From: Deltaproteobacteria bacterium | GTDB taxonomy: Bacteria > Myxococcota_A > UBA9160 > UBA6930 | DNA length: 64,000 nt | Reading direction: 5' to 3' | Assembly: GCA_029261815.1 (NCBI GenBank) | Contig: JAJDAQ010000097.1 | Coordinates: 1-64,000, forward strand | In this document: positions 609-64,000 of the stretch, one piece after another | How the letters are laid out: each line of letters starts with the position of its first letter | How positions within the stretch are numbered: position 1 is the first letter of the stretch | Translations under genes and position numbers: made by a program | Notes under the pieces: generated by a model | The model's input: only the letters and a program-made list of their open reading frames with translations | Told to the model about the DNA's origin: nothing | Database searches by the model: none

Positions 609-621
609 CGAAGGACCGACG

Positions 622-1791: not shown

Positions 1792-1800
1792 GAGAAGAGC

Positions 1801-2982: not shown

Positions 2983-2993
2983 GAGACAAGAAG

Positions 2994-21168: not shown

Positions 21169-21170
21169 TC

Positions 21171-22328: not shown

Positions 22329-22347
22329 CCCCAAAGGACCCCCACCG

Positions 22348-25029: not shown

Positions 25030-25033
25030 TGCC

Positions 25034-25830: not shown

Positions 25831-26781
25831 TCAGTCGAGCGGGTCCACCCACAGGTCGAGTTCCCCGTTCACCGGGTAGGTGCGCGGGAAGAGGCCCGAG
25901 CCGCCGGCGGCGGTGCCGTCCTCGATGCCCTCGAGCACTGCGCCGAGATCGAGGAGGTCACGCCTCGTGAGCGCGGGCGCGCGGGTCGAGTCGAGTTTCC
26001 CGTGACCCCCGTAGGAGCGCACGTGGGTCGGCAACAGTGTGGCGGCATGGTCCACGGCCATCCGATAATCCGCGGCCGAACTCCCGGGGAGGAAGGCGAA
26101 GAGCGGCCCCGGATAGAGAAAGTCACCGGCAAAGAAATAGCCCGAGGCCTCGTCCCAGAGCGAGATCGACTCGGGCGTGTGCCCCGGCGTGTGCACCACA
26201 AGCAGTGTGCGCCCGCCGAGGTCGATCCGCGCTCCCGGCGGCCACCACTCGGTCGGCCGGAGTCGAGGGGCCGTGTAGTCCTCGATCTGGCCCAGGAACT
26301 GGTCCGGGGTTGGCACCAGGACGCCGTCGACCAGTTGGTCCCGCACGCCCGCGACGTCCATGAGCGCGATCTCGTCGAAATAGGCGAGGTTGCCGATATG
26401 GTCGTAGTGAAGGTGGGAGGGAGCGGCGACGACGGGGAGGTCGGTCACTTCCTCGACGAGCCGGCGCAGCGATGTGCGGACCCCTGGGCCCGTATCGAAC
26501 AAGACCGCCCGGTCCTCGCCCAGAATGAGATAGGCGAAGTTCCGTTGGGCGAAGCGCGGCTCGCCAATGGCCAATGTCCGCTCGTCGAGCCACTCGAGGG
26601 TGAAGTAGTCGTCCCACCACGCGACGCCCTCTTCGAGCGATTCAACCTCGAGTAGCGCGGGCGGGTCCGCCAGGGACATGACGTGGATCAGGACGGTCCG
26701 CCGGTTGGCGACGCTCCAGACGAACACGATCGTCGTCAACAACCAGAGGGCGATGAGAAACAGCACGACGGGCCGACGCAT
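25831..26781 (-). CDS. membrane-anchored MBL-fold metallohydrolase
   Basis: 316 residues. Residues 5-25 form one hydrophobic helix (VVLFLIALWLLTTIVFVWSV) that would anchor the protein with the enzyme outside. The metal site is visible: H123-x-H125-x-D127-H128 in SHLHYDHIGN, then HTPGHTPESI and FAGDFLYPG, and a final SYGGHGK. This is the glyoxalase II-like metallo-beta-lactamase fold; substrate could be a thioester, ester or lactone. It diverges from an MFS transporter gene 63 nt away, so the two may be co-regulated. Confidence 0.88.
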   Translation of the reverse strand: MRRPVVLFLIALWLLTTIVFVWSVANRRTVLIHVMSLADPPALLEVESLEEGVAWWDDYFTLEWLDERTLAIGEPRFAQRNFAYLILGEDRAVLFDTGPGVRTSLRRLVEEVTDLPVVAAPSHLHYDHIGNLAYFDEIALMDVAGVRDQLVDGVLVPTPDQFLGQIEDYTAPRLRPTEWWPPGARIDLGGRTLLVVHTPGHTPESISLWDEASGYFFAGDFLYPGPLFAFLPGSSAADYRMAVDHAATLLPTHVRSYGGHGKLDSTRAPALTRRDLLDLGAVLEGIEDGTAAGGSGLFPRTYPVNGELDLWVDPLD

Positions 26782-26844
26782 GGACCCACCGTATCACGCG
26801 AATGGGCACCACGCGGGCATCACCGGACAGGCTAGGTTTCGTCC

Positions 26845-28134
26845 GTGAAGGCCCCGCGCTCACTCCCGGCACTTCATCGTGCATTCCCGAACGTCTTCTA
26901 CGGCTGGCTGGTCGCCTCCGGCGGGAGCGCGATGTCGTTCGCCGTCGTTGGCGTCGGGTTCTACGGGCTCGTCGTCCTGCTCGATGCCCTCGTCACCGAG
27001 CGCGGTCTCGCACGCGACGACGTTTCGCTGGTCACGACGGTGTACTGGGTCGTGACGGGTCTCGTCGGTCTGGCGATTGGCCGCGGCGTCGACCGTTTCG
27101 GCGCCCGCGGCTTCATGGCCGCAGGTCTGCTGTTGATGGCGGCCGGGCTTGTCTGGATCGGTCGCATCTCGTCCGCGGTCGAGATCGTTCCCGCCTACGT
27201 GCTACTCGCGCTCGGTTTCTCGATGGCGGGCGCGATTCCCAACGGCGCCATCATCACTCGCTGGTTCGTCGCGAAGCGGGCCCGGGCAATGACGCTGTCG
27301 CATACAGGGGTCTCTCTCGGCGGAGTCCTGTTGGTCCCCCTGATGACGGGATGGATCCAGACGCACGGCTTGACGGTGGCGCTCGATCGCATCGCCGCGA
27401 TGCTGCTGCTGATGGGTCTCCCCATCGTGATCTGGGTCCTGCGTTTCGACCCGCACGACTTCGGGCTCGAGCCAGACGATGGAGAGACGGCCGACGCTGC
27501 GCCGTCCCGCGCCGTGCTGACGGCCCAGGCACGGGTCTGGCGACGATCCGACATTCTTCGTTCTCCAAGCTTCCAGATATTGGCCGCTGCCTATGCGCTC
27601 ATGCTGCTATGCCAGGTCGGATACTCGATGCATCAACTCGCGTTCCTCCGCGAGCGAATGGAAGTCGAGCTCGCCGCGTGGGGCGTTTCGGCGGTCGCGT
27701 TCGGGAGCTTCTCGGCGCGGCTCGTCCTGGGGCCGTTGGCGGACCGGCTATCGAAGCGTCGGATGGCGGCCGGGCTCTTCGTCTTCCAGGCCGCCATGAT
27801 CGTGGTGTTGGCGAATGCTGAGCGTCCGGCTGTCCTGCTAGGCGCGTCGCTCGGCTTCGGTTTTACCGTCGGAACGATCTTCATGCTGCAGGCGCTGCTG
27901 GTGGGCGAGCTGTTCGGTCGCGTGTCTTTTGCGACCGCGATGGGTCTGCAGCAGGTGGTTTCGCAGGTCGCCAGTGGCTTGGGGCCCGCGGTCCTCGGCT
28001 TGCTCGCCACCGCGTACGGCGGCTACAGCATCGCGCTGCATTGGCTTGCCGCGGGCGCGCTGATCGCGGCCGTCCTGATCCTGGGTGTGCGCATTCCGGA
28101 GCCGGCGGCTGCCGCCGGTGCTATTCGCCGGTAA
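26845..28134 (+). CDS. MFS transporter
   Basis: 429 residues from a GTG; no ATG fits before the first membrane helix FYGWLVASGGSAMSFAVVGV. Twelve helices are predicted by eye, with the MFS loop GRGVDRFGARGFMAAG after helix 2 and its counterpart GPLADRLSKRRMAAGLFVFQ in the second half. It resembles the monocarboxylate/oxalate-formate type of MFS importers. Substrate is unknown; import of a carboxylic acid for the nearby CoA-ligase pathway would fit. The final 14 nt overlap the convergent enoyl-CoA hydratase gene. Confidence 0.9.
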   Translation: MKAPRSLPALHRAFPNVFYGWLVASGGSAMSFAVVGVGFYGLVVLLDALVTERGLARDDVSLVTTVYWVVTGLVGLAIGRGVDRFGARGFMAAGLLLMAAGLVWIGRISSAVEIVPAYVLLALGFSMAGAIPNGAIITRWFVAKRARAMTLSHTGVSLGGVLLVPLMTGWIQTHGLTVALDRIAAMLLLMGLPIVIWVLRFDPHDFGLEPDDGETADAAPSRAVLTAQARVWRRSDILRSPSFQILAAAYALMLLCQVGYSMHQLAFLRERMEVELAAWGVSAVAFGSFSARLVLGPLADRLSKRRMAAGLFVFQAAMIVVLANAERPAVLLGASLGFGFTVGTIFMLQALLVGELFGRVSFATAMGLQQVVSQVASGLGPAVLGLLATAYGGYSIALHWLAAGALIAAVLILGVRIPEPAAAAGAIRR

Positions 28135-28921
28135 AGACGGGGTCGCGCTTTTCGAGGAATGCACGCGGCCCCTCGGCGGCATCCTTCGATCCCATCACCT
28201 TCATGCCGTGCTTCTGTTCGATGGCGAACGCCTCTTCCTCGGGCATGACCTCGGTCGATCGCAGCGTCGCGAGGATCGCTTTCACTGCGAGCGGGCCATT
28301 CGCTGCGATGCGGTCGGCGATCTCCCTGGCCTTGGTCAGGGCCTGGCCGTCGGGGACGACGTGGTTGATCAGGCCGAGTTCGTAGGCTCGGCTTGCCGGC
28401 AGGTCTTCGCCAGCCAGCAGCATTTCGGCGGCCACGGCATAGCCGATCTGCCTTCGCAGCCGGACGGCGCTGCCGGCCATCGGGAAGAGTCCGCGTTGAA
28501 CCTCGGTGACGCCGAAAAGGGCACCCTCGCCGGCGACCCGAATGTCGGTTCCTTGCAGGATTTCCGTCCCACCGGCACGCGCGAAGCCCTCCGCAGCCAG
28601 GATCACGGGCTTGGTCGGACGATAGGTCTTGAGCCAGGCGCCGTAGATGCGCTGCGGCTCCTTCTTGACGCGCTCCTGCCACTCATTCTCGGGCGGGCCG
28701 CCGAGTTTTCCGATCTCGGAGAGGTCCATGCCGGCGCAGAAGGTGTTGCCGCGGCCGGTCAGGATCGCGACGCGCAGGTCATCGTCCTCATCGAGCTGCA
28801 CCCACGCATCGTACAAGCGACACATCACCTCGGTGTTCACGGCATTCCGCTTCTCGGGCCGGTTGAGGGTGACGGTGAGGACGTGTCCGTCCTTCTCGAC
28901 GATGACGACGGGTTCGCTCAC
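28121..28921 (-). CDS. enoyl-CoA hydratase/isomerase (crotonase)
   Basis: 266 residues from a GTG with AAAGGAG 7 nt upstream. Crotonase features: VTLNRPEKRNAVNTEVM, the oxyanion segment RGNTFCAGMDLSEIG and KPVILAAEGFARAGGTEILQ, then a GVTEVQRGLFPMAGSAVRL loop. The second catalytic Glu position reads V-Q-R-G, similar to other steroid-operon hydratases. It follows the acyl-CoA dehydrogenase at 28950 by 28 nt, forming a two-gene operon for successive beta-oxidation steps, read leftward from KstR-like site 2. Confidence 0.92.
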   Translation of the reverse strand: MSEPVVIVEKDGHVLTVTLNRPEKRNAVNTEVMCRLYDAWVQLDEDDDLRVAILTGRGNTFCAGMDLSEIGKLGGPPENEWQERVKKEPQRIYGAWLKTYRPTKPVILAAEGFARAGGTEILQGTDIRVAGEGALFGVTEVQRGLFPMAGSAVRLRRQIGYAVAAEMLLAGEDLPASRAYELGLINHVVPDGQALTKAREIADRIAANGPLAVKAILATLRSTEVMPEEEAFAIEQKHGMKVMGSKDAAEGPRAFLEKRDPVFTGE

Positions 28922-28949
28922 GGGCGCTCCTTTTCAGTGGATGCAGACA

Positions 28950-30140
28950 CTAGCTGCGAGGGAGATCTTCGAACGGGATATCGCGCACGTCGTGCGGGTC
29001 CCTGGGCATACCGAGTACGCGTTCTGCGCAGACGTTCTTCTGGACCTGGTCCGTGCCACCCGCAATATGCCAGGCCGGCGCGAACAGGAATTCGTTCTGC
29101 CAGAAACCCTCTCGCTGGAGCGCGCGCGGGCCCAGCGCCTGAAGTGCGACGTCCGCACCGTCGGACAACATCTTCGCGAGAGCGAGTTTCATCACCGAGG
29201 ACTCGGCCATCGGCATCTCGCCGCGTCCGAGCTTCGTGACCATGCGCGCATTCAGGAGTTCGAGCGCGCGGAGCTGGGTGTAGACGCGTGCCACACCGTC
29301 CCGAACCGCAGCAGGCGCTCCGTCCGGATGGCATTCCTTGACGAGCGAAACGAGCTTGTCGAACTCGAGCATGCTCGTCATTCCACTCATGTGCATGCGT
29401 TCGTTCATGAGCGTGGTCTGTGTGACGGGCCAGCCCTGGCCAATTCCGCCGATCCGGTTCGTGTCGGGCACGCGCACGTCGTTCAGGAATGTCTCGTTGA
29501 AGTGCGACTCGCCCGTCATCTCGATGAGTGGGCGTACGTCGATTCCCGGCGTCTTCATGTCCACGATGAAGTAGGTCAGTCCCTGGTGTTTCGGGACGGA
29601 CGAGTCCGTGCGCGCGATCAAGATGCCGAGGTCGTTGTGGTCGGCGCTCGAGCTCCAGGTCTTCTGTCCGTTGATGATCCAGTCGTCGCCATCCCGAACG
29701 GCGCGTGTTGCAAGTCCCGCCAGGTCCGAACCCGCTCCGGGTTCGCTGAAGAGCTGGCACCACGTTTCGTCGCCGCGAAGCAGGGGGCCGAGGTAGCGCT
29801 CCTTCTGCTGAGGTGAGCCGTGTGCGATCAGGGTCGGCCCGACCATGCCGATGCCGACGGCCAGCATCGAGTGCCCGAGTCCGCGCTTCGTGCACTCCTC
29901 GTTCCAGATGATCTGCTCGATGGGTCCGAAGCCTCGGCCCCCGGCGGCTTCGGGCCAGGTGATGGCGCCCCAACCGTGCTCGGCGCACACCTTCTGCCAC
30001 GCGACATGGCGATGGAAGACGTCCATCTGGTCGTCACCCGATGTGTAGGAGCCGATGCCGCCGTCGGGCGAGTGCTCATCGAGGAAGGCGGTGGCCTCGG
30101 CCCGGAACGCGGCCTCGGCGGGGGAGTCGGAGAAATCCAT
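28950..30140 (-). CDS. acyl-CoA dehydrogenase, long type
   Basis: 396 residues from MDFSDSPAEAAFRAEAT; 18 further codons upstream would run across the operator and are not used. FAD/substrate motifs: WCQLFSEPGAGSDLAGLATR, DDWIINGQKTWSSSADHND, FNETFLNDVRVPDTNRIGG, and at the C terminus HIAGGTDQVQKNVCAERVLG, the flavin-binding loop. It resembles FadE subunits that form alpha2beta2 enzymes acting on bulky CoA esters. Paired with the enoyl-CoA hydratase downstream and divergent from the acyl-CoA dehydrogenase pair at 30221. Confidence 0.93.
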   Translation of the reverse strand: MDFSDSPAEAAFRAEATAFLDEHSPDGGIGSYTSGDDQMDVFHRHVAWQKVCAEHGWGAITWPEAAGGRGFGPIEQIIWNEECTKRGLGHSMLAVGIGMVGPTLIAHGSPQQKERYLGPLLRGDETWCQLFSEPGAGSDLAGLATRAVRDGDDWIINGQKTWSSSADHNDLGILIARTDSSVPKHQGLTYFIVDMKTPGIDVRPLIEMTGESHFNETFLNDVRVPDTNRIGGIGQGWPVTQTTLMNERMHMSGMTSMLEFDKLVSLVKECHPDGAPAAVRDGVARVYTQLRALELLNARMVTKLGRGEMPMAESSVMKLALAKMLSDGADVALQALGPRALQREGFWQNEFLFAPAWHIAGGTDQVQKNVCAERVLGMPRDPHDVRDIPFEDLPRS

Positions 30141-30168
30141 GAGGTGCTCTGCGAGGGGAATGCCAAAA

Positions 30169-30184
30169 TTAGAACGTGTTTCAT
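30169..30184. promoter_or_regulatory. KstR-like operator, site 2 (divergent acyl-CoA dehydrogenase promoters)
   Basis: The 14-mer TAGAACGTGTTTCA (30170-30183) fits TNNAACNNGTTNNA. Its left half is identical to site 1, and the right half deviates from perfect symmetry in two positions. It lies in the 80-nt gap between divergent acyl-CoA dehydrogenase genes, about 30 nt from one start and 37 nt from the other, so one regulator could control both directions. Confidence 0.65.
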
Positions 30185-30220
30185 TCCTGTGCAATCATGC
30201 CCAGCGTCGGAGGTCGCTCG

Positions 30221-31396
30221 ATGTACGTTGATTTCACGCCCGAGCAGAAAGCGCTCCAACAGGAGCTGCGCGGGTACCTGAACCGCCTCGTCGATGAACG
30301 CGTGCGCGCCGAACTCCAGGCTGGCACGAGTGGCGGCCCCGAGTTCCGCCGTGTGCTGCGTCAGCTCGGGAAAGATGGGTGGCTCGGGATCGGCTGGCCC
30401 AAGGCCTATGGCGGCCAGGACCGTTCGGCGATCGAGCAGTACATCTTCGCTGAAGAGATCCATCGCACCGGCTACCCGTTTCCGTTCCTCACCGTGGGTA
30501 CCGTGGGTCCCACGATCATGAAGTATGGGACGGAGGCGCAGCGCGAACGATTCCTGCCCAAGGTTCTTGCCGGCGAACTGCTCTTCTCGATTGGTTATTC
30601 GGAGCCGCAGGCGGGGACGGACCTGGCATCTCTCCAGACGCGCGCTGTTCAAGACGGCGATCACTTCATCATCAACGGGCAGAAGATCTGGACGAGTCTG
30701 GCCGATCACACGGACTACGTGTGGCTCGCGTGTCGCACCGACCCGGATGCTCCCAAGCACCGCGGCATCTCGATGATCCTGGTTCCGCTCGACGCGCCGG
30801 GCGTTTCGATGTCGCCGATCCTGACCGTGGGCGGGACCCGGACCAACGCGACGTTCTACGAGAATGTTCGCGTCCCGGTCGAGAATTGCGTCGGTGGGGT
30901 GAACCAGGGCTGGACGTTGATCACGAACCAGCTCAATCACGAGCGCGTCTCGTTGTTCAATCACAGCACGCTGCGGCTGCTCTACGACGACGTCCTGGCG
31001 TGGGCCAAGCAGGCGCCGCATCGGCTCGACGGGCACGTGATCGATGTCCCTTGGGTGCGTGCCCACCTTGCGCGTTTCCGCGCCCACCTCGAAGTCCTCC
31101 AGATGATGAACTGGAAACAGGCGTGGGACATCACGCAGGGGGGGCTGAAGCCAGCGGACGCTTCGGCACTCAAGGTCTTCGCGAGCGAGTTCCACGTGCA
31201 GGGCCATCAATGGCTGATGGAAGTGCTCGGCGAAGCCGGCACGATTCGCCCGGGCGAGCCGGCCGCCATCCTGCAGGGACGCGTGGAGAAACAGTCGCGC
31301 GCGTCCTGGGTGCTGACATTCGGCGCAGGAGTCAACGAAGTCCAGCGCGACATCATCGCCATGGCCGGCCTCGGCCTGCCGAACTACAAGAACTAA
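30221..31396 (+). CDS. acyl-CoA dehydrogenase, long subunit
   Basis: 391 residues from the ATG with GGAGG 7 nt upstream; earlier in-frame starts lie within the operator region. Motifs: FSIGYSEPQAGTDLASLQTR, HFIINGQKIWTSLADHTDYV, ATFYENVRVPVENCVGG, and the C-terminal flavin loop LTFGAGVNEVQRDIIAMAGL. Followed after 5 nt by a shorter paralogue, the arrangement of alpha2beta2 FadE enzymes such as ChsE4-ChsE5 in actinobacterial steroid side-chain oxidation. Function is dehydrogenation of a CoA ester; substrate not known. Confidence 0.93.
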   Translation: MYVDFTPEQKALQQELRGYLNRLVDERVRAELQAGTSGGPEFRRVLRQLGKDGWLGIGWPKAYGGQDRSAIEQYIFAEEIHRTGYPFPFLTVGTVGPTIMKYGTEAQRERFLPKVLAGELLFSIGYSEPQAGTDLASLQTRAVQDGDHFIINGQKIWTSLADHTDYVWLACRTDPDAPKHRGISMILVPLDAPGVSMSPILTVGGTRTNATFYENVRVPVENCVGGVNQGWTLITNQLNHERVSLFNHSTLRLLYDDVLAWAKQAPHRLDGHVIDVPWVRAHLARFRAHLEVLQMMNWKQAWDITQGGLKPADASALKVFASEFHVQGHQWLMEVLGEAGTIRPGEPAAILQGRVEKQSRASWVLTFGAGVNEVQRDIIAMAGLGLPNYKN

Positions 31397-31401
31397 CGTA
31401 T

Positions 31402-32484
31402 ATGGATTTCTCCGAGAACGAAGACCTGAAAGCCGTTCGGGAACTCGCGCGCGAGATCCTCGAGGCGCAGCTACCGACGGAGCGCATCCGCGACATCGGG
31501 GCAAGCAGCGACGGACTCGATCGCGATTGCTGGGCCGCTCTCGCAAGAGCGAACCTGCTGGGGGCCGCACTTCCCGAGGCTGTCGGGGGATCCGGTCTGG
31601 GGCTCCCCGCGCTGGCTGTGCTCCTGGAGGAAGTCGGGCGTACGGTGGCACCGGTTCCCGCGCTCGCAACCCTGGCGCTCGGCGCAGCCGCGATCGATGC
31701 CTTCGGCTCGGACGCGCAGGTTCAGCAATGGCTCCCCGGTGTCGTCGACGGCAGTGTGTTGTTGTCGGCCACGACGGCGGCGGGAACCGAGGTCCGCGCC
31801 GAGCGCAACGGCACGGCGTGGCGATTGATGGGCCAGGCGCCACTGGTCCCGGCAGCGAGACATTCCGGCGCGCTCGTGACGCCGGCAATGGTGGAAGGCG
31901 ATGGCCTGCGTCTCTTCCTGGTGAATGTGGATACTGCGGGCGTCACTTGCGAGCCCGTCATCGCGATGGATGGGCAACCCCGCGATCACGTCACCTTCAC
32001 TGGCGTGGCTGCCGAGCCGCTGGGTTCCGTCGATTCGCCCGATGCGGCAATCGCACCCGATTGGCTGGACCGGCGCGCGACCCTCGCGAGCTGTGCGCTG
32101 CAGCTGGGCGTTTGCGCGCGCGCGCTCGAGATTACGGCCGGATACGTCCGCGAGCGCGAGCAGTTTGGGCGCCCCGTCGGGAGTTTTCAGGCGGTGCACA
32201 CCCGCGCGGCGGACGCCTACATCGACCTCCAGTCCGTTCGGCTCACCTACTGGCGGGCTTTGCATGTGGAGGCCCATGGCGGCGGCGACGCGCAGGAACT
32301 CATCGGGCTCGCGAAGTACTGGGCGAGTGAAGCGGGAACGCGCATCACGGCTTCGGCCCAACATCTCCACGGTGGAATCGGTGTCGATGTCGAGTACCCG
32401 ATCCACCGGTACACGTTGTGGTCGCGTCAGCTCGCGATGCAGATGGGTAGCGCCCCCGAGCAGCTCGCCCGGCTGCGGCTGTAG
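31402..32484 (+). CDS. acyl-CoA dehydrogenase, short subunit
   Basis: 360 residues from MDFSENEDLKAVRELAREIL, 5 nt after the long subunit. The middle domain is reduced and lacks the usual S-E-P-x-x-G-S-D flavin motif; the C-terminal domain retains YVREREQFGRPVGSFQAVHT and HLHGGIGVDVEYPIHRYTLW. That split of motifs between a long and a short protein is typical of heterotetrameric acyl-CoA dehydrogenases where one FAD site is shared. The C-terminal signature is closely similar to that of the truncated gene at position 1. Confidence 0.92.
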   Translation: MDFSENEDLKAVRELAREILEAQLPTERIRDIGASSDGLDRDCWAALARANLLGAALPEAVGGSGLGLPALAVLLEEVGRTVAPVPALATLALGAAAIDAFGSDAQVQQWLPGVVDGSVLLSATTAAGTEVRAERNGTAWRLMGQAPLVPAARHSGALVTPAMVEGDGLRLFLVNVDTAGVTCEPVIAMDGQPRDHVTFTGVAAEPLGSVDSPDAAIAPDWLDRRATLASCALQLGVCARALEITAGYVREREQFGRPVGSFQAVHTRAADAYIDLQSVRLTYWRALHVEAHGGGDAQELIGLAKYWASEAGTRITASAQHLHGGIGVDVEYPIHRYTLWSRQLAMQMGSAPEQLARLRL

Positions 32485-40329: not shown

Positions 40330-43300
40330 TCAGGCGTTCGTGCGTCGGTGGAAGGAATCCTCGAGGTCCCGCAGCTTCTCGCGGGCTTCCTCGAGGTGCC
40401 GTTCCTTCACCATGTCGTAGCCCCGCACGTATTCGGGCAAGCTGGCGATGGCGACGGCGGTCTCGAGGTTGTCCGGTGTCAGGCCGTCGAGGAGTTCAGC
40501 GACCTGGGCTTCGTAGTCCTTGATCAGCTGTCGTTCCAGCCGTCGATGCGCGCGGTACCCGAACGGATTGAACGGGGTGCCCCGCAGGAAGCGGAGCTTT
40601 CGCGTGAGCCGGAACACCGGGAGCATGTACTTCGCCGGAATGCTGAGCTTCTTGGCTCGACCGGTTTCTGCGTCGCGTGGCGCCAGGCCCGGCGCGAAGA
40701 ACAGGAAGTGGTCGGCCGCGAGATGGAGCTTCCACTCGTAGTCTCCCTCGAATTGCTGCGCGATCTGCTCTTCGAAGGTTCCATCGGTGTAGAGCCGTGC
40801 CACTTCGTACTCGTCCTTGATTGCGAGCAGCTTGAAGTAGTAACGGGCGACCGCGCGCGCGAGCGCATCCTGGTCTCCGGCCACCGAGCGCTCGCGTGCG
40901 GCGACGCGTTCGACGAACTTGCGATACCGCTTGGCGAGGCGTGCGTTCTGGTAGGCCGTCAACTCGGTCACCCGCTTCTCGACGATCCCATCCAATGTCG
41001 TCGCCAGGCCGTCGACCTGGCCGTCGCGGAGCAGCGGGCGGGCAGCCTGCTCAACCGCTTCGCGGTCGTGGGCCCAGAGTCGCCCCCAGGAAAGCGCGCG
41101 CTGGTTGGCATCGACGGCTCTTCCGTTCAGGGTGATGGCGCGCTCCAGTGCGGGGAGTCGAACCGGAATCCGGCCGAGTTGGACGGCGATGCCTAGCAAG
41201 AACATGTTCGTGTAGACGGCGTCGCCCATCAAAGCGGTTGCCAAGCTCGTGGCATCCACGATGTGGACGCCTCCGTCACCGCAGGCTTCGCGCGCGGCGC
41301 TCGTCATGGCGTCCGTCGACAAGTCCAGGTCCGCATTGGTGGCGAACTCGGCCGTCGGGGTGATGTGACCGTTGGCGACGAGCGTGGTCTGCGTTCCCAT
41401 CTTCGGGAGGTGTTCGTAGTTGGTCGCGGTCACGAGGTCGCAGCCAAGCACGACGTCGGCCCCGCCGAGTCCGATGCGCGTTGCAAAGATGTCGTCGGGA
41501 GAGGCCGCAACCCGCACGTGACTGGAGACCGGCCCGTTCTTCTGGCTGAGGCCGGTCACGTCGAGTTCCGAGACCCCCTTGCCTTCGAGGTGGGCCGCCA
41601 TCGACAGGATTGCACCAACGGTGACGACGCCGGTTCCGCCGATCCCGGCGAGGAGGACGTTGAACGGCGTCTCCAGCGCCGGTTCGGCCGGAGTCGGCAA
41701 TGCTTCGAAGACGCCACCCGCCTCAACCTGCTTGGGCGCGGCCTTCCGGAGTTGCCCGCCTTCGACCGAGACGAAGCTCGGGCAGTAGCCGTTCACACAG
41801 GAGTAATCCTTGTTGCACGACGACTGGTTGATGCGGCGCTTCCGTCCGAACTCGGTTTCGACCGGTTCGATGGAGATGCAGTTCGATTGCACCGAGCAGT
41901 CGCCGCAGCCTTCGCAGACGGCTTCGTTGATGACGATGCGTCGGTCCGGGTCCGGAAAGTCCCCCGTGCGGCGGAGGCGGCGCGCTTCGGCTGCGCAGGT
42001 CTGGTCGTAGACCAGTGCGGTGACGCCCGGAGTCTCGCGGAGCTGCTTCTGGACCGCGATCAAGTCGTCGCGGTGACGCACTTCGACGCCGGCCGGGAAG
42101 ATGCCCTTGGCGTACTTCTCCGGTTCGTTCGAGGCCACCACGATCTTCTTGACGCCTTCGGCCGTGAGCTGGTGGGCGATCTCGGGGCAGGTGATTTCGC
42201 CGTCCATCGGCTCGCCCTCAATGGGCTGGCCCCCGGTCATGGCGACCGCACCGTTCACGAGCACCTTGTACGTGATGTTCACACCCGCGGCGACGCACGC
42301 GCGAACGGCCAGAAGGCCCGAGTGGAAATAGGTCCCGTCTCCCAGGTTCTGGAAGACGTGCGGGAGTGACGTGTAGCGAGCCTGGCCGATCCAGTTGGCC
42401 CCTTCGCCTCCCATCTGGGTGGCACCGAACGTGCGACGCTCGGGAAAGAAGACGGCCATGCCGTGACATCCAATGCCACCGAGCGCGATCGAGCCCTCCG
42501 GAACGACGGTCGACGAGTTGTGCGGGCACCCGGAGCAGAACGAGGGCAGACGCTGTAGCTGTGCCGGCGGAAGAACCGGGGACACGTCGAAGCGCGGGCG
42601 AAGCGCGCGCGCGTTCTCACCGAGCTTGCGCTCGAGCCAGCCACGCAGGGCTTCCGCAATGATGGCGGGCGAGAGTTCGCCCTCCGACGGAAGGAGCGGC
42701 GCGCCACGTTCGTCGCGCTTTCCCAGCAATGTCGGTCGATCGGTTTCGTTGTAGAGGATGCGCGCGAGCTGCTCTTCCATCAGCGGCCGCTTCTCTTCAA
42801 CCACCAGGAGGTCTTCGAGCCCGTGCGCGAACTCCCGCGCTCCTTCGGGCTCGAGCGGCCAACTCATCGCGACCTTGTAGAGCGTGATTCCGAGATCGGC
42901 CGCACGTGCTTCGTCGAGTCCCAGCTCTTCCAGGGCCTGACGCACGTCGAGGTACGCCTTCCCCGTGGTCACGATTCCGAGCCGCCGGTTCGGCGAGTCG
43001 AGCACCACGCGGTCCAGCCGGTTCGCGCGAACGAATGCTTGCGCGGCGGGCAGCTTCACCTGGTAGAGCTGCTCCTCGATCTTCACCAACGTGTTGTTCA
43101 TCGTGACGTGGTGGTCGGCCTCGGGAAACGCGAAGTCGGGAACCACCGTCCTCACGCGATCGGGGCCCACGATGACCGAAGCCGCACTGTCGACCGTGTC
43201 GGTCAGACACTTGAAGGCGACCCAGCACCCCGAATAGCGAGAGAGCGCGAAGCCCATCAGGCCGAGGTCGACATAGTCCTGGACATTCGCCGGGTTGAGG

Positions 43301-43821
43301 ATCGGAACGCCGGCGTGCACGAAGGCATGTTCGCTTTGATGCGCGATCGACGAACTCTTGGCGCCCGGGTCATCACCACAGAGCGCGAGGACGCCCCCAC
43401 GTTCGGCGGTTCCCATGTAGTTCGCGTGTTTGATGGGATCGAGCGAACGATCGACGCCGGGCCCCTTGCCGTACCAGATCGAGAAGACGCCCTCGACGCG
43501 CGGACCCGGCTGCAGCACCGCTTGTTGGGTGCCCCAGATGGAGGTGGCGGCGAGATCCTCGTTCACCCCCGGCTCGAAGTGGATGCCGTTCGCGTCGAGC
43601 AGCGACTTCGCTTGCCAGAGCGCCATGTCGTAGGTGCCGAGCGGCGACCCCCGATACCCGGAAATGAAACCCTCGGTGTTCAGGCCGGCGGCCTCGTCTC
43701 GCCACTTCTGCATCAGTGGCAGGCGGACGAGCGCCTGCACGCCGGTCAGGTAGACGCGCCCGGACTCACGCGTGTAGCGGTGGTCGAGCTCGTAATCGGC
43801 ATCAAAAGAGGCGGCGGTCAT
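40330..43821 (-). CDS. fused indolepyruvate ferredoxin oxidoreductase
   Basis: 1163 residues, the fused IorA-ferredoxin-IorB form of proteobacteria. N-terminal pyrimidine/TPP domain (LPLMQKWRDEAAGLNTEGFI, GYRGSPLGTYDMAL), thiamine-binding domain with SFCSGCPHNSSTVVPEG and GIGCHGMAVFFPER, an iron-sulfur domain near residues 645-705 with VCEGCGDCSVQSNC and SCNKDYSCVNGYC, and a gamma domain NVLLAGIGGTGVVTVGAILS plus a C-terminal DUF6537-like tail. It oxidises aryl- or branched 2-oxo acids to acyl-CoA with ferredoxin. It diverges from an F420 oxidoreductase gene, sharing KstR-like site 3, so its role may be in catabolism of an aromatic or branched acid. Confidence 0.93.
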   Translation of the reverse strand: MTAASFDADYELDHRYTRESGRVYLTGVQALVRLPLMQKWRDEAAGLNTEGFISGYRGSPLGTYDMALWQAKSLLDANGIHFEPGVNEDLAATSIWGTQQAVLQPGPRVEGVFSIWYGKGPGVDRSLDPIKHANYMGTAERGGVLALCGDDPGAKSSSIAHQSEHAFVHAGVPILNPANVQDYVDLGLMGFALSRYSGCWVAFKCLTDTVDSAASVIVGPDRVRTVVPDFAFPEADHHVTMNNTLVKIEEQLYQVKLPAAQAFVRANRLDRVVLDSPNRRLGIVTTGKAYLDVRQALEELGLDEARAADLGITLYKVAMSWPLEPEGAREFAHGLEDLLVVEEKRPLMEEQLARILYNETDRPTLLGKRDERGAPLLPSEGELSPAIIAEALRGWLERKLGENARALRPRFDVSPVLPPAQLQRLPSFCSGCPHNSSTVVPEGSIALGGIGCHGMAVFFPERRTFGATQMGGEGANWIGQARYTSLPHVFQNLGDGTYFHSGLLAVRACVAAGVNITYKVLVNGAVAMTGGQPIEGEPMDGEITCPEIAHQLTAEGVKKIVVASNEPEKYAKGIFPAGVEVRHRDDLIAVQKQLRETPGVTALVYDQTCAAEARRLRRTGDFPDPDRRIVINEAVCEGCGDCSVQSNCISIEPVETEFGRKRRINQSSCNKDYSCVNGYCPSFVSVEGGQLRKAAPKQVEAGGVFEALPTPAEPALETPFNVLLAGIGGTGVVTVGAILSMAAHLEGKGVSELDVTGLSQKNGPVSSHVRVAASPDDIFATRIGLGGADVVLGCDLVTATNYEHLPKMGTQTTLVANGHITPTAEFATNADLDLSTDAMTSAAREACGDGGVHIVDATSLATALMGDAVYTNMFLLGIAVQLGRIPVRLPALERAITLNGRAVDANQRALSWGRLWAHDREAVEQAARPLLRDGQVDGLATTLDGIVEKRVTELTAYQNARLAKRYRKFVERVAARERSVAGDQDALARAVARYYFKLLAIKDEYEVARLYTDGTFEEQIAQQFEGDYEWKLHLAADHFLFFAPGLAPRDAETGRAKKLSIPAKYMLPVFRLTRKLRFLRGTPFNPFGYRAHRRLERQLIKDYEAQVAELLDGLTPDNLETAVAIASLPEYVRGYDMVKERHLEEAREKLRDLEDSFHRRTNA

Positions 43822-55957: not shown

Positions 55958-57148
55958 ATGGACCTGCGTTACTCCGATGCGGACGAGAAGTTCCGCCGCG
56001 AACTGCGTTCCTGGCTCGACCAGGAAGTGCCCAAACACGGAGCGCCGCCGCCCCGCAGCGATTGGGACGCACGTCGCGACTACGACATGGGCTGGCAGAA
56101 GAAGCTCTTCGAAGCCGGGTATGCCGGGGTCAACTGGCCTTCCGAATACGGCGGCCGCGGCGCCACCCTCACCGAAGAACTCGTCTACTACGAGGAGTAC
56201 GCGCGGGCGAAGGCGCCGTACGTCGGGATGAACTTCGTGGGCCTGCGTCACGGTGGGCCGACCGTGATCGCCGAAGGCACGGAACTGCAGAAACAGACAC
56301 ACCTGCCCAAGATCCTGCGCGGCGACGAAGTCTGGTGTCAGGGCTTCTCGGAACCGTCCGCCGGGTCCGACCTCGCCGCGTTGAAGACGACGGCGATCCG
56401 CGACGGCGACCACTACGTCGTGAATGGCCAGAAGACCTGGACCTCGTTCGCGCAGAAGGCCGACTTCTGCGAGCTGCTCGTGCGCACCAACCCGGAGGTT
56501 CCGAAACACGGCGGCATCAGCTGGGTCATCATGCCGATGGACCTTCCCGGCATTTCGATCTCGCCCATCGACACGATTCGCGGAGAGAGTGACTTCGCCG
56601 AGATGTTTCTTGAGGATGTCCGAGTCCCTGTCGAGCACCTCGTCGGCGAAGAGAACGACGGCTGGCGCATCACGAACGTGACGCTGCGCTTCGAGCGCGG
56701 AAGCGCCTGGGCCCAGGACATCTACGAACTGAAGGAATTCCTGTCCGACATGGCCGAGGTCGCCCGCAACATCACGAGTGACGGCGCGACGGCGTGGGAT
56801 GACATCGGACTGCGCCGCGAAGCCGGTCACCTGGCGGCTGAGGCCGACTCGCTGTGGGCTCTGATGAAGTGGCAACTCGGAGAAGTCGCGCGGACCGGAA
56901 TGCCCGGAATCGGAGGCTCGGCTCTGAAGCTGGCCTTCACCGAACTCAATCAACGCGTCTACGAATTCGGCACGCGCCTGATGGGCCGCATGGGCCTGTC
57001 GCGCACGGACCTCGCTGGACATCGGAACGGCTACACCGTGGACACGTTCCTGAACACGCTGTCGCTCACGATCGCGGCAGGTTCGTCACAGGTGCAACGC
57101 AACATCATCTCCGAGCGAATTCTCGGAATGCCCAAGGAGAAGCGTTAG
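55958..57148 (+). CDS. acyl-CoA dehydrogenase, long subunit
   Basis: 396 residues from ATG with GAGAGG 6 nt upstream; the longer open frame crosses the operator. Flavin motifs: WCQGFSEPSAGSDLAALKTT, HYVVNGQKTWTSFAQKADFC, SDFAEMFLEDVRVPVEHLVG, and the terminal IAAGSSQVQRNIISERILGM loop. Long-type FadE, very similar in layout to those at 28950 and 30221. It is followed after 2 nt by a short paralogue, the usual pair of an alpha2beta2 enzyme. Controlled presumably by site A. Confidence 0.93.
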   Translation: MDLRYSDADEKFRRELRSWLDQEVPKHGAPPPRSDWDARRDYDMGWQKKLFEAGYAGVNWPSEYGGRGATLTEELVYYEEYARAKAPYVGMNFVGLRHGGPTVIAEGTELQKQTHLPKILRGDEVWCQGFSEPSAGSDLAALKTTAIRDGDHYVVNGQKTWTSFAQKADFCELLVRTNPEVPKHGGISWVIMPMDLPGISISPIDTIRGESDFAEMFLEDVRVPVEHLVGEENDGWRITNVTLRFERGSAWAQDIYELKEFLSDMAEVARNITSDGATAWDDIGLRREAGHLAAEADSLWALMKWQLGEVARTGMPGIGGSALKLAFTELNQRVYEFGTRLMGRMGLSRTDLAGHRNGYTVDTFLNTLSLTIAAGSSQVQRNIISERILGMPKEKR

Positions 57149-57150
57149 TC

Positions 57151-58131
57151 ATGGAGTTCCAGTTCACGGAAGACCAGACCGCGCTGCAGGAGGGCATCCG
57201 CTCGTTCTGCGAAGGGCGCTTCCCGTTCGACGGAATCGCCGAGCTCGAGAAGGCTCCCTTCTCGAAGGAACTCTGGGCCGAACTCGCCGAAATGGGCGTC
57301 TTCGGTCTTCGCCTCCCCGAAGATCAGGGGGGCGTCGGCCTGGGCATGGCGGACGCGGCCATCGTGTTCGCTGAACTCGGCAGACGCGTGGTTCCGGGGC
57401 CCACTGTCTGGGGTGCCGCCCTCGCAAGCGTGATCGACGGCGTCGCTTCGGGCGAGGTCGTGGTGAGCGGTCTCGATACGCGCCTTGCGAGTCCGGCTGG
57501 AATGACGCTCGTCGACTATGGCGACCAGCTCGACGTACTCGTCGTCCTGCGAAGCGACGGTGTGTACCGCGTCGAAGGCAGCGCGCTCTCGGGCGAACTC
57601 GTCGAAGAACCCCTCGACCCGTTGACTCCGATGCTGGCGGTGACGGACCTGCCGCAAGGCGAGAAGATCGGAGACAACGACCTCGCCCATCAGATCCGTG
57701 TCGAAGCGACCCTGTTGGCTTCCGCATTCTTCCTCGGAATGGCGGAGTCCACCGTGGAGTATGCGGTTGCGTATGCGAAGGGCCGTGAGCAGTTCGACCG
57801 CCCGATCGCGGGCTTCCAGGCGATCAAGCACATCGCGGCCGACATGTACGTGAAGCAGGAGATGGCGCGTGCGGCCGTCTACGCGGCCGCGTGCACGTTC
57901 GATGATCCCGAGATCGGGAACCCGATCCGGGCCATCGCCAGCGCGCGCGTCGTTGCGGGCGAAGCCGCCATGCACAATGCCCGGAAGTGCGTGCAGATAT
58001 ACGGGGGCATGGGCTTCACCTGGGAGATGCCGCCGCACTACTACCTGAAGCGGACCTTTGTCCTCGAGAACACGCTCGGAACCGGTGAGTTCGCCAGCGA
58101 GATCGTCGCCCGCCACATCGACGCGGCGTAA
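57151..58131 (+). CDS. acyl-CoA dehydrogenase, short subunit
   Basis: 326 residues from MEFQFTEDQTALQEGIRSFC, 2 nt after the long subunit. The middle domain is strongly shortened (VVVSGLDTRLASPAGMTLVD) and no S-E-P flavin motif is present. The C-terminal domain has YAKGREQFDRPIAGFQAIKH and QIYGGMGFTWEMPPHYYLKR. It should pair with the product of 55958. It is shorter than the equivalent gene at 31402 by 34 residues, mostly in the middle domain. A complex hairpin follows the stop. Confidence 0.92.
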   Translation: MEFQFTEDQTALQEGIRSFCEGRFPFDGIAELEKAPFSKELWAELAEMGVFGLRLPEDQGGVGLGMADAAIVFAELGRRVVPGPTVWGAALASVIDGVASGEVVVSGLDTRLASPAGMTLVDYGDQLDVLVVLRSDGVYRVEGSALSGELVEEPLDPLTPMLAVTDLPQGEKIGDNDLAHQIRVEATLLASAFFLGMAESTVEYAVAYAKGREQFDRPIAGFQAIKHIAADMYVKQEMARAAVYAAACTFDDPEIGNPIRAIASARVVAGEAAMHNARKCVQIYGGMGFTWEMPPHYYLKRTFVLENTLGTGEFASEIVARHIDAA

Positions 58132-60418: not shown

Positions 60419-61828
60419 ATGGCCGGCATCGTCTCGTACGGGGCGTACATCCCCCCCACCCGTCTTGGCTTTTCGGTCATGGGCGGTGGTGCTCCCAAAG
60501 ATGGGGGCCCCGAACGTTCCGTCGCGTGGAATGACGAAGACGCGGTGACCATGGCCGTGACCGCAGCGGTGAACTGCCTACGCGGTTTCGACCGGGCCGC
60601 CGTCGACGGAGTGCTGTTCGCCAGCACGACCTACGCGTTCAAGGAAAAACAGGGAGCCGCGCTGATCGCGAAGGCCCTCGACCTGCGTCGCGACGTGCGA
60701 ACCGCCGATGTTTCGGGCTCGGTTCGGGCCGGCACCGACGCACTGCGCGCCGCATTCGACTCGGTGGCGGCCGGTAGCGCACAGCGCGTGCTCGTGATCG
60801 CGAGCGATGCGCGGCTTGGCGCACCCGGTTCAGGGCTCGAGCGCAACTTCGGTGATGGTGCCGCGGCATTCTTGATCGGCGATGCCGATGCGATCGCCGA
60901 GGACGAGGGGGCGTTCGCCTTCGCGGAAGAAATCGTGGATGTCTGGCGAGCCGAAGGCGACGCGTTCGTGCACACCTGGGAAGAGCGCTTCGTCGTGCAA
61001 GAGGGCTATACGCCCGGTATCGCCGAAGCCGTCAACGGCCTGGTTGCGAAGCTGGGGGCATCGATCGGCGATTTCAATCGAGTCGCACTCTACGGGCCGG
61101 ACGCGCGCAGTCACGGAACTGCCGCGCGCTCACTCGGAATCGACCGTGGACGCCTGGTGGACCCGCTCTTCGGCAAGCTCGGGAACGCGGGCGTCGCATT
61201 CGCGCCGTTGCTTCTCGTTTCGGCATTGGAAGCTGCGAAGCCGGGTGATCGCATCTTGCTCGCGAACTACGGCGATGGCGGCGAAGCCTCCGCACTGTCG
61301 GTCGCGGCACCCATCGAGAAGCTCGAAGCGCGCCGGGGTGTTGCGTGGCACCTGGCCAAGCGTTGGGCGGTTCCGAAGTACGAGACGTACCTGAAAGCGC
61401 GCGACCTGCAGTCCGCCGAGTACGACGCGGGCACGAACCAGGGTCTCTCGGCCACGATCCACTTCCGCGAGCGCGAAGACGAGATTGCGTTCAAGGCCCA
61501 ACAGTGCGGAAGCTGTGGGGCGCTTCAATTCCCGGCGCAGCGAATCTGCGAGTCGTGTTATGCGAAAGACGACTTTACGCAGGTCCGTCTTTCCGACCAG
61601 GTGGGTTCCGTCGTCACGTTCACGCTCGACTTCTTCTTTCCGACGCCCGATCCGCCCACGATCGTCACGATCACAGACATTGGCGGCGCGCGCGTGCATC
61701 TCCAGCTCGTGAATATCCCGGCCGACCAGGTGCGCCCCGGGATGCCCGTCGAGTTCGAATTCCGCCGCATCCATCAGGTGGGCGGACGCCCCAATTACTA
61801 CTGGAAGGGCGTGCCGTTCGCGCAGTAG
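60419..61828 (+). CDS. HMG-CoA-synthase-like domain fused to DUF35 zinc-ribbon/OB-fold
   Basis: 469 residues. The N-terminal 330 residues follow the HMG-CoA synthase/KAS III fold: MAGIVSYGAYIPPTRLGF, VLFASTTYAFKEKQGAA, FGDGAAAFLIGDADA, LFGKLGNAGVAFAPLLLVSA. The usual active-site A-C-Y-G-G-T is replaced by SVRAGTDAL, so no nucleophilic Cys is present. A DUF35 domain follows with an intact ribbon, QQCGSCGALQFPAQRICESC, and an OB-fold. In archaea HMGCS, thiolase and DUF35 form a complex; here two are fused and the thiolase gene is next. The role may be structural or in acyl transfer. Confidence 0.85.
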   Translation: MAGIVSYGAYIPPTRLGFSVMGGGAPKDGGPERSVAWNDEDAVTMAVTAAVNCLRGFDRAAVDGVLFASTTYAFKEKQGAALIAKALDLRRDVRTADVSGSVRAGTDALRAAFDSVAAGSAQRVLVIASDARLGAPGSGLERNFGDGAAAFLIGDADAIAEDEGAFAFAEEIVDVWRAEGDAFVHTWEERFVVQEGYTPGIAEAVNGLVAKLGASIGDFNRVALYGPDARSHGTAARSLGIDRGRLVDPLFGKLGNAGVAFAPLLLVSALEAAKPGDRILLANYGDGGEASALSVAAPIEKLEARRGVAWHLAKRWAVPKYETYLKARDLQSAEYDAGTNQGLSATIHFREREDEIAFKAQQCGSCGALQFPAQRICESCYAKDDFTQVRLSDQVGSVVTFTLDFFFPTPDPPTIVTITDIGGARVHLQLVNIPADQVRPGMPVEFEFRRIHQVGGRPNYYWKGVPFAQ

Positions 61829-61854: not shown

Positions 61855-63003
61855 ATGCAGAAGGACGCCATTCGGGACAAGGTCGCGGTCACGGGCGTGG
61901 GTTGCTGCCAGTTCGGCGAGAACTGGGACAAGAGCCCTTCCGACATGATCGTCGACGCGGCCTACGAGGCCTACGCCGACGCCGGCATCGACGAACCGCA
62001 GAAGCAGATCGATGCCGTCTTCACGGGGTCGATTTATTCGAACAAGGGCCCGCACGAGTGCAGCGACGCCCTCAAGCTCTTCGGCAAGCCGGTGACGATG
62101 GTGTCCAACTACTGCGCCACGGGCACCGATGCCTTCCGCTGCGGTGTGATGTCAATCGCGGCTGGCCTCTACGACACGGTATTGGTCGTCGGCTACGACA
62201 AGCCCAAGGACCGCGGCGTCTCCGGTCCGTCCGTCATGATGGACCGTGTGCGCGATCTCCCGCAGACGCCGGCCGGCTGGTTCGCGCTATGCGCGGCCAC
62301 GTACTTCGACAAGTACGGCGCCGGACGCGAAGACCTGGCCCGCATCGCCGTCAAGAACCATCACAACGGAACGCTGGCGCCGAACTCCTTCCTGAAGCGT
62401 GAGATCACGGTCGAAGACGCGCTGAATGGGCGCATGATTTCCTGGCCGTTCGGACTCTACGACTGCGCCGCCCAGACCGACGGGGCTGCCGCGGCCGTGA
62501 TCACGCGCGCTGACCTGGCATCGAAGGACGCCATTCTGGTGAAGGGCGTCACCGTGATCGCGGGTCCGAACCCGCAGAAGGACCCCGGCAACGATTTCCT
62601 GTCTTGGAAGCCCACGGGCTGGGCAGCCACCGACATCTACGCCCAGGCCGGAATCGACGATCCTGCCAACCAGATCGACGTCGCTCAGGTGCATGACTGT
62701 TTTACGCTGACCGAGCTGTTGACCTACGAAGACCTGGGCTTCATCGAAAAAGGGTCAGCCAAGGAACACATCGCCGACGGCAAGTTCGAACTCACGGGCG
62801 ACCTGCCGGTGAATACGGACGGTGGGCTCAAGGCCTTCGGCCATCCAACAGGTGCGACCGGCGTGCGCATGATCTACGAGAATGTGCAGCAGCTCCGGGG
62901 CACCGCAGGCGAACGCCAGGTGAGCGATCCCGGTATCGCTCTTTCGCATAACATTGGCGGGCACCCGACAGCTTGTGGGATCGCCATTCTGGGGAAGCAG
63001 TAG
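61855..63003 (+). CDS. thiolase-family acetyl-CoA acetyltransferase
   Basis: 382 residues from ATG with AGGAGG 6 nt upstream. It retains the nucleophilic Cys (SNYCATGTDAFRCG), and the C-terminal catalytic His/Cys region reads GGLKAFGHPTGATGVRM and HNIGGHPTACGIAILGKQ. This contrasts with the Ltp-like genes at 622, 20113 and 21171, which lack the Cys. It follows the HMGCS-like/DUF35 fusion by 26 nt and precedes an enoyl-CoA hydratase with a 1-nt overlap, indicating an operon for cleavage of a CoA ester. Likely partner of the fusion protein. Confidence 0.9.
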   Translation: MQKDAIRDKVAVTGVGCCQFGENWDKSPSDMIVDAAYEAYADAGIDEPQKQIDAVFTGSIYSNKGPHECSDALKLFGKPVTMVSNYCATGTDAFRCGVMSIAAGLYDTVLVVGYDKPKDRGVSGPSVMMDRVRDLPQTPAGWFALCAATYFDKYGAGREDLARIAVKNHHNGTLAPNSFLKREITVEDALNGRMISWPFGLYDCAAQTDGAAAAVITRADLASKDAILVKGVTVIAGPNPQKDPGNDFLSWKPTGWAATDIYAQAGIDDPANQIDVAQVHDCFTLTELLTYEDLGFIEKGSAKEHIADGKFELTGDLPVNTDGGLKAFGHPTGATGVRMIYENVQQLRGTAGERQVSDPGIALSHNIGGHPTACGIAILGKQ

Positions 63004-63809
63004 TGGCGGGCGAAGTCCACTACGAGGTGGCCGACCACATTGGCACCATTACGCTCGACAACCCCAAGGCGCGCAACGCGTTCGACTATGAGATGACGCA
63101 GGCGTTGCGTCGGCTCTGGGGCGAGATCCAGAGGGACGAGAACGTCCGCTGCGTGATCGTTACGGGAGCCGGCGAGAAAGCCTTCTGCACAGGTTGGGAC
63201 ATCAGCTCGACGGCGGCCGGCGATAGCCAGAAGTTCGCCAAGGTCGCACGCAAGGACGCACCCTACAGCCAGATCACGGCGATCCAGAACGAATGCTGGA
63301 CGCCCGTCATTACGGCCGTCAACGGGCAGTGCGTGGGGGGTGGCCTTCACTTCGTGGCGGACAGTGACCTCGTGATCGCGTCCGAGGGCGCCACCTTCTT
63401 TGATACCCACGTGCAGAACGGTTTGGCGGCGACGCTCGAACCGGCGGGGCTCGCGCGGCGCATTCCACTCGACGCCGTCTTCCGCCTGACCTACCTGGGT
63501 TCGGCCGAGCGCATGAGCGCGGCCGAAGCGCACCGTATCGGTCTGGTCGGCGAAGTTGTTGCGAACGATCAGCTGCTGGCGCGTGCGCGCGAACTGGCCA
63601 CGATCATCTGCGGCTACTCGCCGACGGCACTCGCGCGCAGCAAGAAGGCGATCTGGGAGAGTCTCGATCACGGGCTCGAGCCCGGCCTCGATGCCGCCTA
63701 TCGGCAGCTCGAACTCCATGCCGACCACCCCGACCAGGTCGAGGGTCCGACGGCATTCTTCGAGAAGCGCGCAGCGAACTGGGCGCCCTTCCCGGGCGAC
63801 GAGGACTAG
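63003..63809 (+). CDS. enoyl-CoA hydratase/isomerase
   Basis: 268 residues from a GTG whose G is the last base of the thiolase stop; GGGGAAG lies upstream. Crotonase motifs: ITLDNPKARNAFDYEM, oxyanion loops GEKAFCTGWDISS and AVNGQCVGGGLHFVADSDLV, and ATFFDTHVQNGLAATLEP. The position of the second catalytic acid reads Asn-Gly, suggesting isomerase or hydrolase activity rather than simple hydration. Followed after 7 nt by another crotonase gene. Confidence 0.92.
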   Translation: MAGEVHYEVADHIGTITLDNPKARNAFDYEMTQALRRLWGEIQRDENVRCVIVTGAGEKAFCTGWDISSTAAGDSQKFAKVARKDAPYSQITAIQNECWTPVITAVNGQCVGGGLHFVADSDLVIASEGATFFDTHVQNGLAATLEPAGLARRIPLDAVFRLTYLGSAERMSAAEAHRIGLVGEVVANDQLLARARELATIICGYSPTALARSKKAIWESLDHGLEPGLDAAYRQLELHADHPDQVEGPTAFFEKRAANWAPFPGDED

Positions 63810-63816
63810 CGAAGCG

Positions 63817-64000
63817 ATGGCGCACGAAAACATCCTGACGGACGTGAGTGACCGGATCGGCACCGTCACGCTGAACCGCCCAGACAAGCTCAATGCCTAC
63901 ACCACCGAGATGGGCGACGAAGTCACGGAGGTCCTTCGCGCCTGGCGGGACGACGACGCGGTGCGCGTCGTGATCCTGACGGGATCGGGCCGCGGTTTCT
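63817..64000 (+). CDS. enoyl-CoA hydratase/isomerase, N-terminal part (3' end outside window)
   Basis: Sixty-one codons are visible from ATG to the window edge. VGTVTLNRP-like IGTVTLNRPDKLNAYTTEM and VILTGSGRGF are crotonase N-terminal motifs, the latter leading into the first oxyanion loop. It is the second crotonase in a row, so the two may form a complex or act on successive substrates of the operon that starts at 60419. Confidence 0.9.
   Translation, partial: MAHENILTDVSDRIGTVTLNRPDKLNAYTTEMGDEVTEVLRAWRDDDAVRVVILTGSGRGF

Follow-up and report, generated by a model that had tools for sequence, protein, structure and literature searches.

What does a homologue of HMG-CoA synthase (HMGCS) do when it has lost its catalytic Cys, is fused to a DUF35 module and is encoded beside a thiolase? 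Such a gene, here called KS35, lies near the end of the 64,000-nucleotide stretch analysed (the window). The initial annotation described it as a Cys-less HMGCS-like protein fused to DUF35, and suggested that its synthase half had become a scaffold or a different enzyme.

Architecture of KS35

The KS35 gene starts with the ATG at 60419 and ends with the TAG at 61826–61828, confirming the coordinates, frame and length first assigned to it (Table 1). It is the single full-length copy in its own genome. The NCBIfam model NF003274 matches residues 1–329 with 200.7 bits, under its cut-off of 244, and TIGR00748 reaches 150 bits against a cut-off of 353, so that KS35 falls short of both curated models for HMGCS. 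In the C-terminal part, phmmer matched residues 348–467 to the DUF35 chain 6esq_E (E 1.1e-8), and the ribbon does retain all four zinc Cys, as had been claimed.

An AlphaFold model of the whole KS35 chain, computed with 24 sequences, had a mean pLDDT of 79.7 and a pTM of 0.82, with weak stretches at residues 171–194 and 332–351. When this predicted structure was compared with solved ones by VIA-align, the top match was the chain 6esq_I of the archaeal HMGCS (Z 44.3, 2.0 Å over 321 residues, 28% identity, KS35 residues 1–332), followed by PhlA (9skh, Z 41.7; 5mg5, Z 41.1). MucA (9vbo, 37.4) was tied with the best other HMG-CoA synthase (36.9), and Foldseek gave the same leaders. These alignments probe the synthase half, as the DUF35 half was not folded by itself.

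Table 1. KS35, its parts and its neighbours in the window
Feature	Position	Strand	Basis or remark
Acyl-CoA dehydrogenase 1 of the recurring block	55958..57148	+	
Acyl-CoA dehydrogenase 2 of the recurring block	57151..58131	+	
KS35, HMGCS-like/DUF35 fusion, 469 aa	60419..61828	+	One of 116 distinct fused proteins, itself counted
Synthase-fold half, about residues 1–335	60419..61423	+	NF003274 match 1–329; AlphaFold model; nearest 6esq_I
Thr70 codon, place of catalytic Glu82	60626..60628	+	Alignments
Val102 codon, place of catalytic Cys114	60722..60724	+	Alignments
Tyr225 codon, place of catalytic His238	61091..61093	+	Alignments
zf-ChsH2 zinc ribbon, residues 351–383, Cys 363/366/377/380	61469..61567	+	PF12172, 30.5 bits, above cut-off 23.2
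OB_ChsH2_C domain, residues 389–449	61583..61765	+	PF01796, 22.4 bits, E 1.2e-4, below cut-off 27.1
SCP2-type thiolase, partner gene	61855..63003	+	NF004810, 407.3 bits, above 403; AGGAGG just upstream
Enoyl-CoA hydratase family protein 1	62973..63809	+	Start codon uncertain
Enoyl-CoA hydratase family protein 2	63817..64000	+	Extends beyond the window; read on L031

Loss of the catalytic residues

KS35 was aligned to chain I of 6esq, whose numbering (Cys114, Glu82 and His238) serves as reference. The column of Cys114 is occupied by Val102, in the block S101-V102-R103-A104-G105-T106, as against FACKAGT in the archaeal HMGCS, and the reported absence of the catalytic Cys is therefore real. The loss extends beyond the Cys, a point that the initial annotation had missed: Glu82 is replaced by Thr70, and His238, the active-site His of HMGCS, by Tyr225. 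Thus, none of the three residues that characterize a catalytic HMGCS (Cys, Glu and His) is present. The motif ACYGGT, against which KS35 had been judged, belongs to the classical HMGCS L105, but the remaining intact relatives seen show ACKAGT, ACKAGS or ACKPGT. We trust the alignment columns because the letters at the PhlA places are the published Gly115 and Cys83, which stand at the archaeal Cys114 and Glu82 according to PMC6392133.

A family of fused proteins without the catalytic Cys

Relatives of KS35 were gathered from four sources: a pattern scan of genome contigs (26 loci); a tblastn search of plasmids (62 records, from which 18 regions were taken); 282 genomes from the window genome's own phylum, in which those relatives that bear a name carry the title Myxococcota or Deltaproteobacteria; and, in addition to chosen stretches, 247 genomes from the phylum to which a Desulfobacterales genome (G282) belongs. 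ORFs were dropped when they did not score above 100, started after model position 40 or ended before 320, as were identical or contained copies. The 143 ORFs that passed gave 122 distinct proteins, of which 116 are fused to DUF35 and six are unfused. Since some genomes contribute several paralogues, the 116 fused proteins are not independent.

None of the 116 has the Cys (one is gapped there) and none the Glu, which is Asp in four, while the His is kept in three. The residues at the Cys position are Leu (60), Thr (23), Gln (13), Val (5), Ser (4), Pro (3) and others (8, including the gap). With no Cys kept in any of the 116, its absence is not a matter of chance, and, as far as these sequences tell, it is a trait of the family and no quirk of the KS35 gene alone. 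All four zinc Cys are present in 112 of the fused proteins; zinc-ligand Cys of the ribbon are lost in L088, L090, L093 and L098. Among the six unfused proteins, four retain all three catalytic residues (L030, L085, L086 and L105) and two retain none (L099 and L142).

Because the survey was seeded by KS35 and an HMGCS model, an intact HMGCS fused to DUF35 could exist elsewhere. In the G282 phylum we deliberately sought one among 30 loci taken with the HMGCS model, in order from the best genomes down, a sample from which the unfused above-cut-off match G358:C17 was left out, and the full-length fused proteins found there all lacked the Cys. All 14 loci taken above the NCBIfam HMGCS cut-off (L120–L133) encode DUF35-fused proteins without the catalytic Cys; L120 reaches 368.8 bits against the cut-off of 244. 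The label 'HMG-CoA synthase' can therefore mislead, as pipelines based on the NCBIfam model would give it to these 14 Cys-less proteins.

Matches of at least 300 bits occur in 48 of the 282 genomes of the window's phylum by hand count, 42 of them among the 59 listed genomes of the window's class and six among the remainder; 146 of the 282 genomes are matchless. On plasmids, fused relatives occur in Sphingomonadaceae, Tistrella, Variovorax, Azoarcus, Rhodococcus, Mycobacterium, Streptomyces and haloarchaea. Our literature search, whose reach left out most subscription journals, turned up no title or abstract opening devoted to this family of Cys-less DUF35 fusions itself.

The adjacent thiolase

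The gene that follows KS35 does encode a Cys-containing thiolase, as had been noticed: it carries the motifs NYCATG, HDCF and FGHP, and the set of Cys, HDCF and GHP is typical of SCP2-type thiolases. Its nearest solved relatives include BbsB (second-best), SCP2-thiolases and the archaeal 6esq thiolase; its single-sequence model (pLDDT 35.8) was left unused. A thiolase gene on the same strand lies less than 400 nt from the fusion in 114 of the 116 cases, downstream in 111 and upstream in three. The exceptions are L006, whose thiolase is 906 nt off, and L087, for which none was found. These 114 thiolases have the nucleophilic Cys without exception, the HDC motif in 108 (six are gapped) and the GHP His in 103 (11 are gapped or cut off), and no other residue stands at any of these places. 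The likeness to the archaeal HMGCS–thiolase–DUF35 complex proposed at the outset is thus well supported, both by this pairing and by the nearest folds, the 6esq HMGCS and then PhlA.

Phylogeny and evolutionary rates

In a quick tree of 72 rows, with SH-aLRT support and no bootstrap, 58 fused rows lie behind one branch with a support of 91, below the level at which branches were starred. Three other fused rows stand near intact HMGCS and PhlA, and the haloarchaeal fused rows stand apart, together with two unfused Cys-less proteins. The topology as drawn requires at least three changes to account for the losses, of which the starred branches force one; the tree is therefore compatible with one or with several losses. 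The same holds for the number of fusions, and a direct rearrangement from the archaeal system, which KS35 had been said to resemble, is one possibility.

The thiolases were more alike than the synthase halves in 6045 of 6441 pairs of fused modules, although these pairs share ancestry, and in 101 of 113 comparisons of the window module with the others. As a control, we took the unfused HMGCS L030 and its thiolase, both of which look intact, and searched 39 genomes; at E 1e-40, the HMGCS was matched in 24 of them and the thiolase in 25. The comparison covered the 19 genomes, besides the query genome, in which one contig holds both genes at full length; it omitted G534, G561, G562 and G565 (fragments or separate contigs) and the thiolase-only genomes, and it used identities. 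Here the synthase was more alike than the thiolase in all 19 genomes, by 2–10 points. Compared with this control, the fused modules, whose synthase halves lack the active site, show the usual order of rates turned round.

The opposite arrangement was seen at two loci from one taxonomic family, L085 (2251–4481; G154:C59) and L086 (2550–4799; G244:C278). They encode an intact HMGCS with Glu, Cys and His, a separate DUF35 protein, and a thiolase in which the Cys is changed to Glu and HDC reads HDS; an ORF near these operons is presumably mevalonate-decarboxylase-like. Between the two loci, the HMGCS proteins are 75% and the thiolases 60% identical, a lead of 15 points for HMGCS that goes only somewhat beyond the control. 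We considered these Cys-less thiolases as a mirror of the fused modules in terms of rate, but the case is weak, since HMGCS also leads by 2–10 points around L030.

Gene neighbourhood and longer fusions

The neighbourhood was compared at 24 related loci that encode the fusion in full length (L005–L027 and L029), several of which end early. Both acyl-CoA dehydrogenases (ACAD) lie upstream at 16 of the 24, and the full order ACAD1-ACAD2-KS35-thiolase-ECH1-ECH2, where ECH stands for the enoyl-CoA hydratases, is found at nine. In the annotated plasmid regions, most of the neighbouring genes encode acyl-CoA dehydrogenases, enoyl-CoA hydratases, short-chain dehydrogenases (SDRs), ring-hydroxylating dioxygenases and acyl-CoA ligases, and the Myxococcota-type loci agree with this. 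Just beyond the window end, on contig C97, a tannase-like DUF6351 protein is encoded downstream of the block (L031, 5567–8056).

Ten longer ORFs start with the synthase–DUF35 unit: nine of 811–939 amino acids in the G282 phylum (L149–L157) and L072 (352–3162, 937 amino acids). In the three searched with Pfam (L149, L154 and L072), a short-chain dehydrogenase follows the unit, and in L149 and L072 an SCP2 domain comes next. Thiolase matches lie beside all nine G282-phylum ORFs, within about 170 nt; the one beside L149 is in two pieces. A dehydrogenase welded to the partner of a thiolase is what the channelled end of a β-oxidation would be expected to look like, which gives a hint of such a function.

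Relation to the estrogen degradation cluster

In the edc estrogen cluster of Novosphingobium tardaugens, a gene for an 'HMG-CoA synthase' (EGO55_13555) is placed in no step, according to PMC7793797; there, the authors placed all genes except two, and for this one they proposed another activity, such as thiolase. A plasmid locus of Novosphingobium sp. ES2-1 (L032) encodes a fusion 43–44% identical and a thiolase 69% identical to those of the window. The fusion, the thiolase and both hydratases sit beside a lipid-transfer protein, an OB-fold protein, a P450, VOC proteins and an indolepyruvate ferredoxin oxidoreductase, in the same gene order as is described for edc (PMC7793797). On the grounds of this synteny, a comparison of gene order, we propose that EGO55_13555 is a KS35-type subunit.

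The window genome also matches the ES2-1 FadD3-family ligase (46%) and a VOC-family protein that is edcB by gene order (37%), and the single match in it for the indolepyruvate ferredoxin oxidoreductase of ES2-1, a 2-oxoacid ferredoxin oxidoreductase (53%), lies in the window at 40372–43800 on the minus strand. Two further regions of the window gave tblastn matches to ES2-1, namely 237–3848 (MaoC, a lipid-transfer protein at 41%, thiolase and SDR) and 20113–32448 (thiolase-like, ligase, several acyl-CoA dehydrogenases and hydratase). We do not regard a steroid pathway in this genome as proven: the matches are hints, and such enzymes occur elsewhere too.

A probable heteromeric thiolase with an emptied synthase half

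KS35 has lost the three catalytic residues of HMGCS and has a synthase fold, the thiolase motifs beside it are intact, the pairing of the two genes is nearly invariant, and their neighbours are catabolic. Our preferred reading is that the dead synthase half and DUF35 probably form a PhlACB-like heteromeric thiolase with the adjacent SCP2-type thiolase, which would cleave a bulky β-ketoacyl-CoA thiolytically. We infer that the two proteins form a physical complex, in which DUF35 would clamp the two thiolase-fold subunits together. The synthase half, presumably inactive, would lend part of the cavity for CoA or substrate beside the active site of the thiolase, and the thiolase, with its Cys, HDCF and GHP, would perform the chemistry, presumably in the direction of cleavage. 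The setting would be a β-oxidation-like catabolic pathway, for which a steroid-like substrate may be suspected.

The role of the emptied half as cavity and scaffold is drawn from analogy with PhlA and with the MaoC domain of ChsH2. In PhlABC, as PMC6392133 reports, only residues of PhlC act in acyl transfer and a cavity of PhlA lies beside the PhlC active site; the fused MaoC domain of ChsH2 lacks catalytic residues and accommodates steroid rings, as stated in PMC11321319. The L030 control tips slightly toward the heteromeric thiolase, although the faster evolution of a subunit is no proof of its inactivity. Against this reading also stand the Asp, a mild change, at the Glu place in four and the His kept in three of the 116 proteins, as well as the conserved polar residues of the synthase half, which could form a new active site and not a cavity.

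It is these residues that favor the next reading, an unlikely one though not to be neglected, in which the synthase half is a Cys-independent enzyme of another kind (e.g. a CoA-thioester hydrolase, lyase or decarboxylase) whose active site has been rebuilt. Among 43 close relatives, E76-K77-Q78, R103, W176-R177, W187-E188, R190, D228 and R230 are each conserved in 97% or more; R177 is common to the KS35 relatives and intact HMGCS, and several of the others are new with respect to the latter. The suggestion of a different activity such as thiolase by the edc authors (PMC7793797) points the same way. However, the Cys and His positions drift among the 116 proteins, of which only 77% retain E76 and 61% Q78, and the thiolase adjoins in almost every case. 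The initial proposal of a departure from HMGCS, be it to a scaffold or to a different enzyme, fits the loss of the three residues.

It is very unlikely that the pair is a biosynthetic C-acyltransferase that builds C–C bonds, like PhlABC or MucABC. Among relatives whose function is known, the nearest that lack HMGCS activity are indeed acyltransferases, but the neighbours on the plasmids and at the Myxococcota-type loci are catabolic, and no polyketide synthase is listed in the annotated plasmid regions.

That KS35 is an intact HMG-CoA synthase, working with some other nucleophile or with a Cys supplied by another part of the chain, is highly improbable, although family models call it HMGCS-like and C53, the lone Cys of its synthase half, is present in 80 of the 116 proteins. 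The three catalytic residues are gone and the scores lie below the curated cut-offs; moreover, L005, which at 82% identity is the closest relative found, carries Ser at the C53 place and has a synthase half without any Cys, as in four of the 116 proteins overall. In eight of the 116, a Cys stands no more than three columns away from the missing one (one three before, five one before and two two after). A substitute Cys thus appears unsupported by the sequences, given the absence of C53 from L005. Finally, a decaying gene, which active-site loss alone might suggest, is extremely improbable in view of the open frame, the zinc Cys retained in 112 proteins, and the similar length and operon place in Myxococcota, the G282 phylum, Proteobacteria, Actinomycetota and Halobacteria.

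Returning to the heteromeric thiolase, we tentatively consider a wider version of it, which is possible but rather doubtful: KS35 and its relatives may represent a widespread, unrecognised class of pseudo-synthases, in which the emptied HMGCS site would be a vestibule for the bulky part of the substrate or the CoA of a thiolase acting in trans, as with the inert MaoC domain of ChsH2, and the SDR/SCP2 fusions of the G282 phylum would channel dehydrogenation and thiolysis. If so, the unplaced 'HMG-CoA synthase' of estrogen degradation would be explained. In any case, the heteromeric-thiolase reading offers a testable function for this edc gene, left without a step in PMC7793797.

Comparison with known systems

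The theme pointed to is that DUF35 joins two thiolase-fold subunits, of which one is dead and the other live. PhlACB (PpATase) of Pseudomonas protegens (PDB 5m3k/5mg5) resembles the KS35 pair in its HMGCS fold without Cys and Glu, its thiolase with a working Cys and its DUF35 with four zinc Cys. In contrast to KS35, where synthase and DUF35 form one chain among catabolic neighbours, it is encoded by three separate genes and serves phloroglucinol biosynthesis. The archaeal HMGCS–thiolase–DUF35 complex (6esq) has three parts equivalent to those of the KS35 module and the closest fold, whereas its HMGCS is unfused, retains Cys114, Glu82 and His238 and makes HMG-CoA. Benzoylsuccinyl-CoA thiolase BbsAB (PDB 7pxp) consists of a catabolic thiolase and a DUF35-type subunit; it is not known to have a synthase-like subunit. 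MucABC (PDB 9vbo/9vbt) acetylates tetramates, according to PMC10161427, and MucA ranks right after PhlA in fold, though tied with an ordinary HMGCS. In ChsH1-ChsH2-Ltp2 and Shy-Sal, DUF35 likewise joins a thiolase-fold enzyme to another domain, although this domain is MaoC and not HMGCS-like, the cleavage is aldol and not thiolytic, and, according to PMC11321319, the DUF35 of the steroid hydratase-aldolase seems unimportant for hydratase or aldolase activity.
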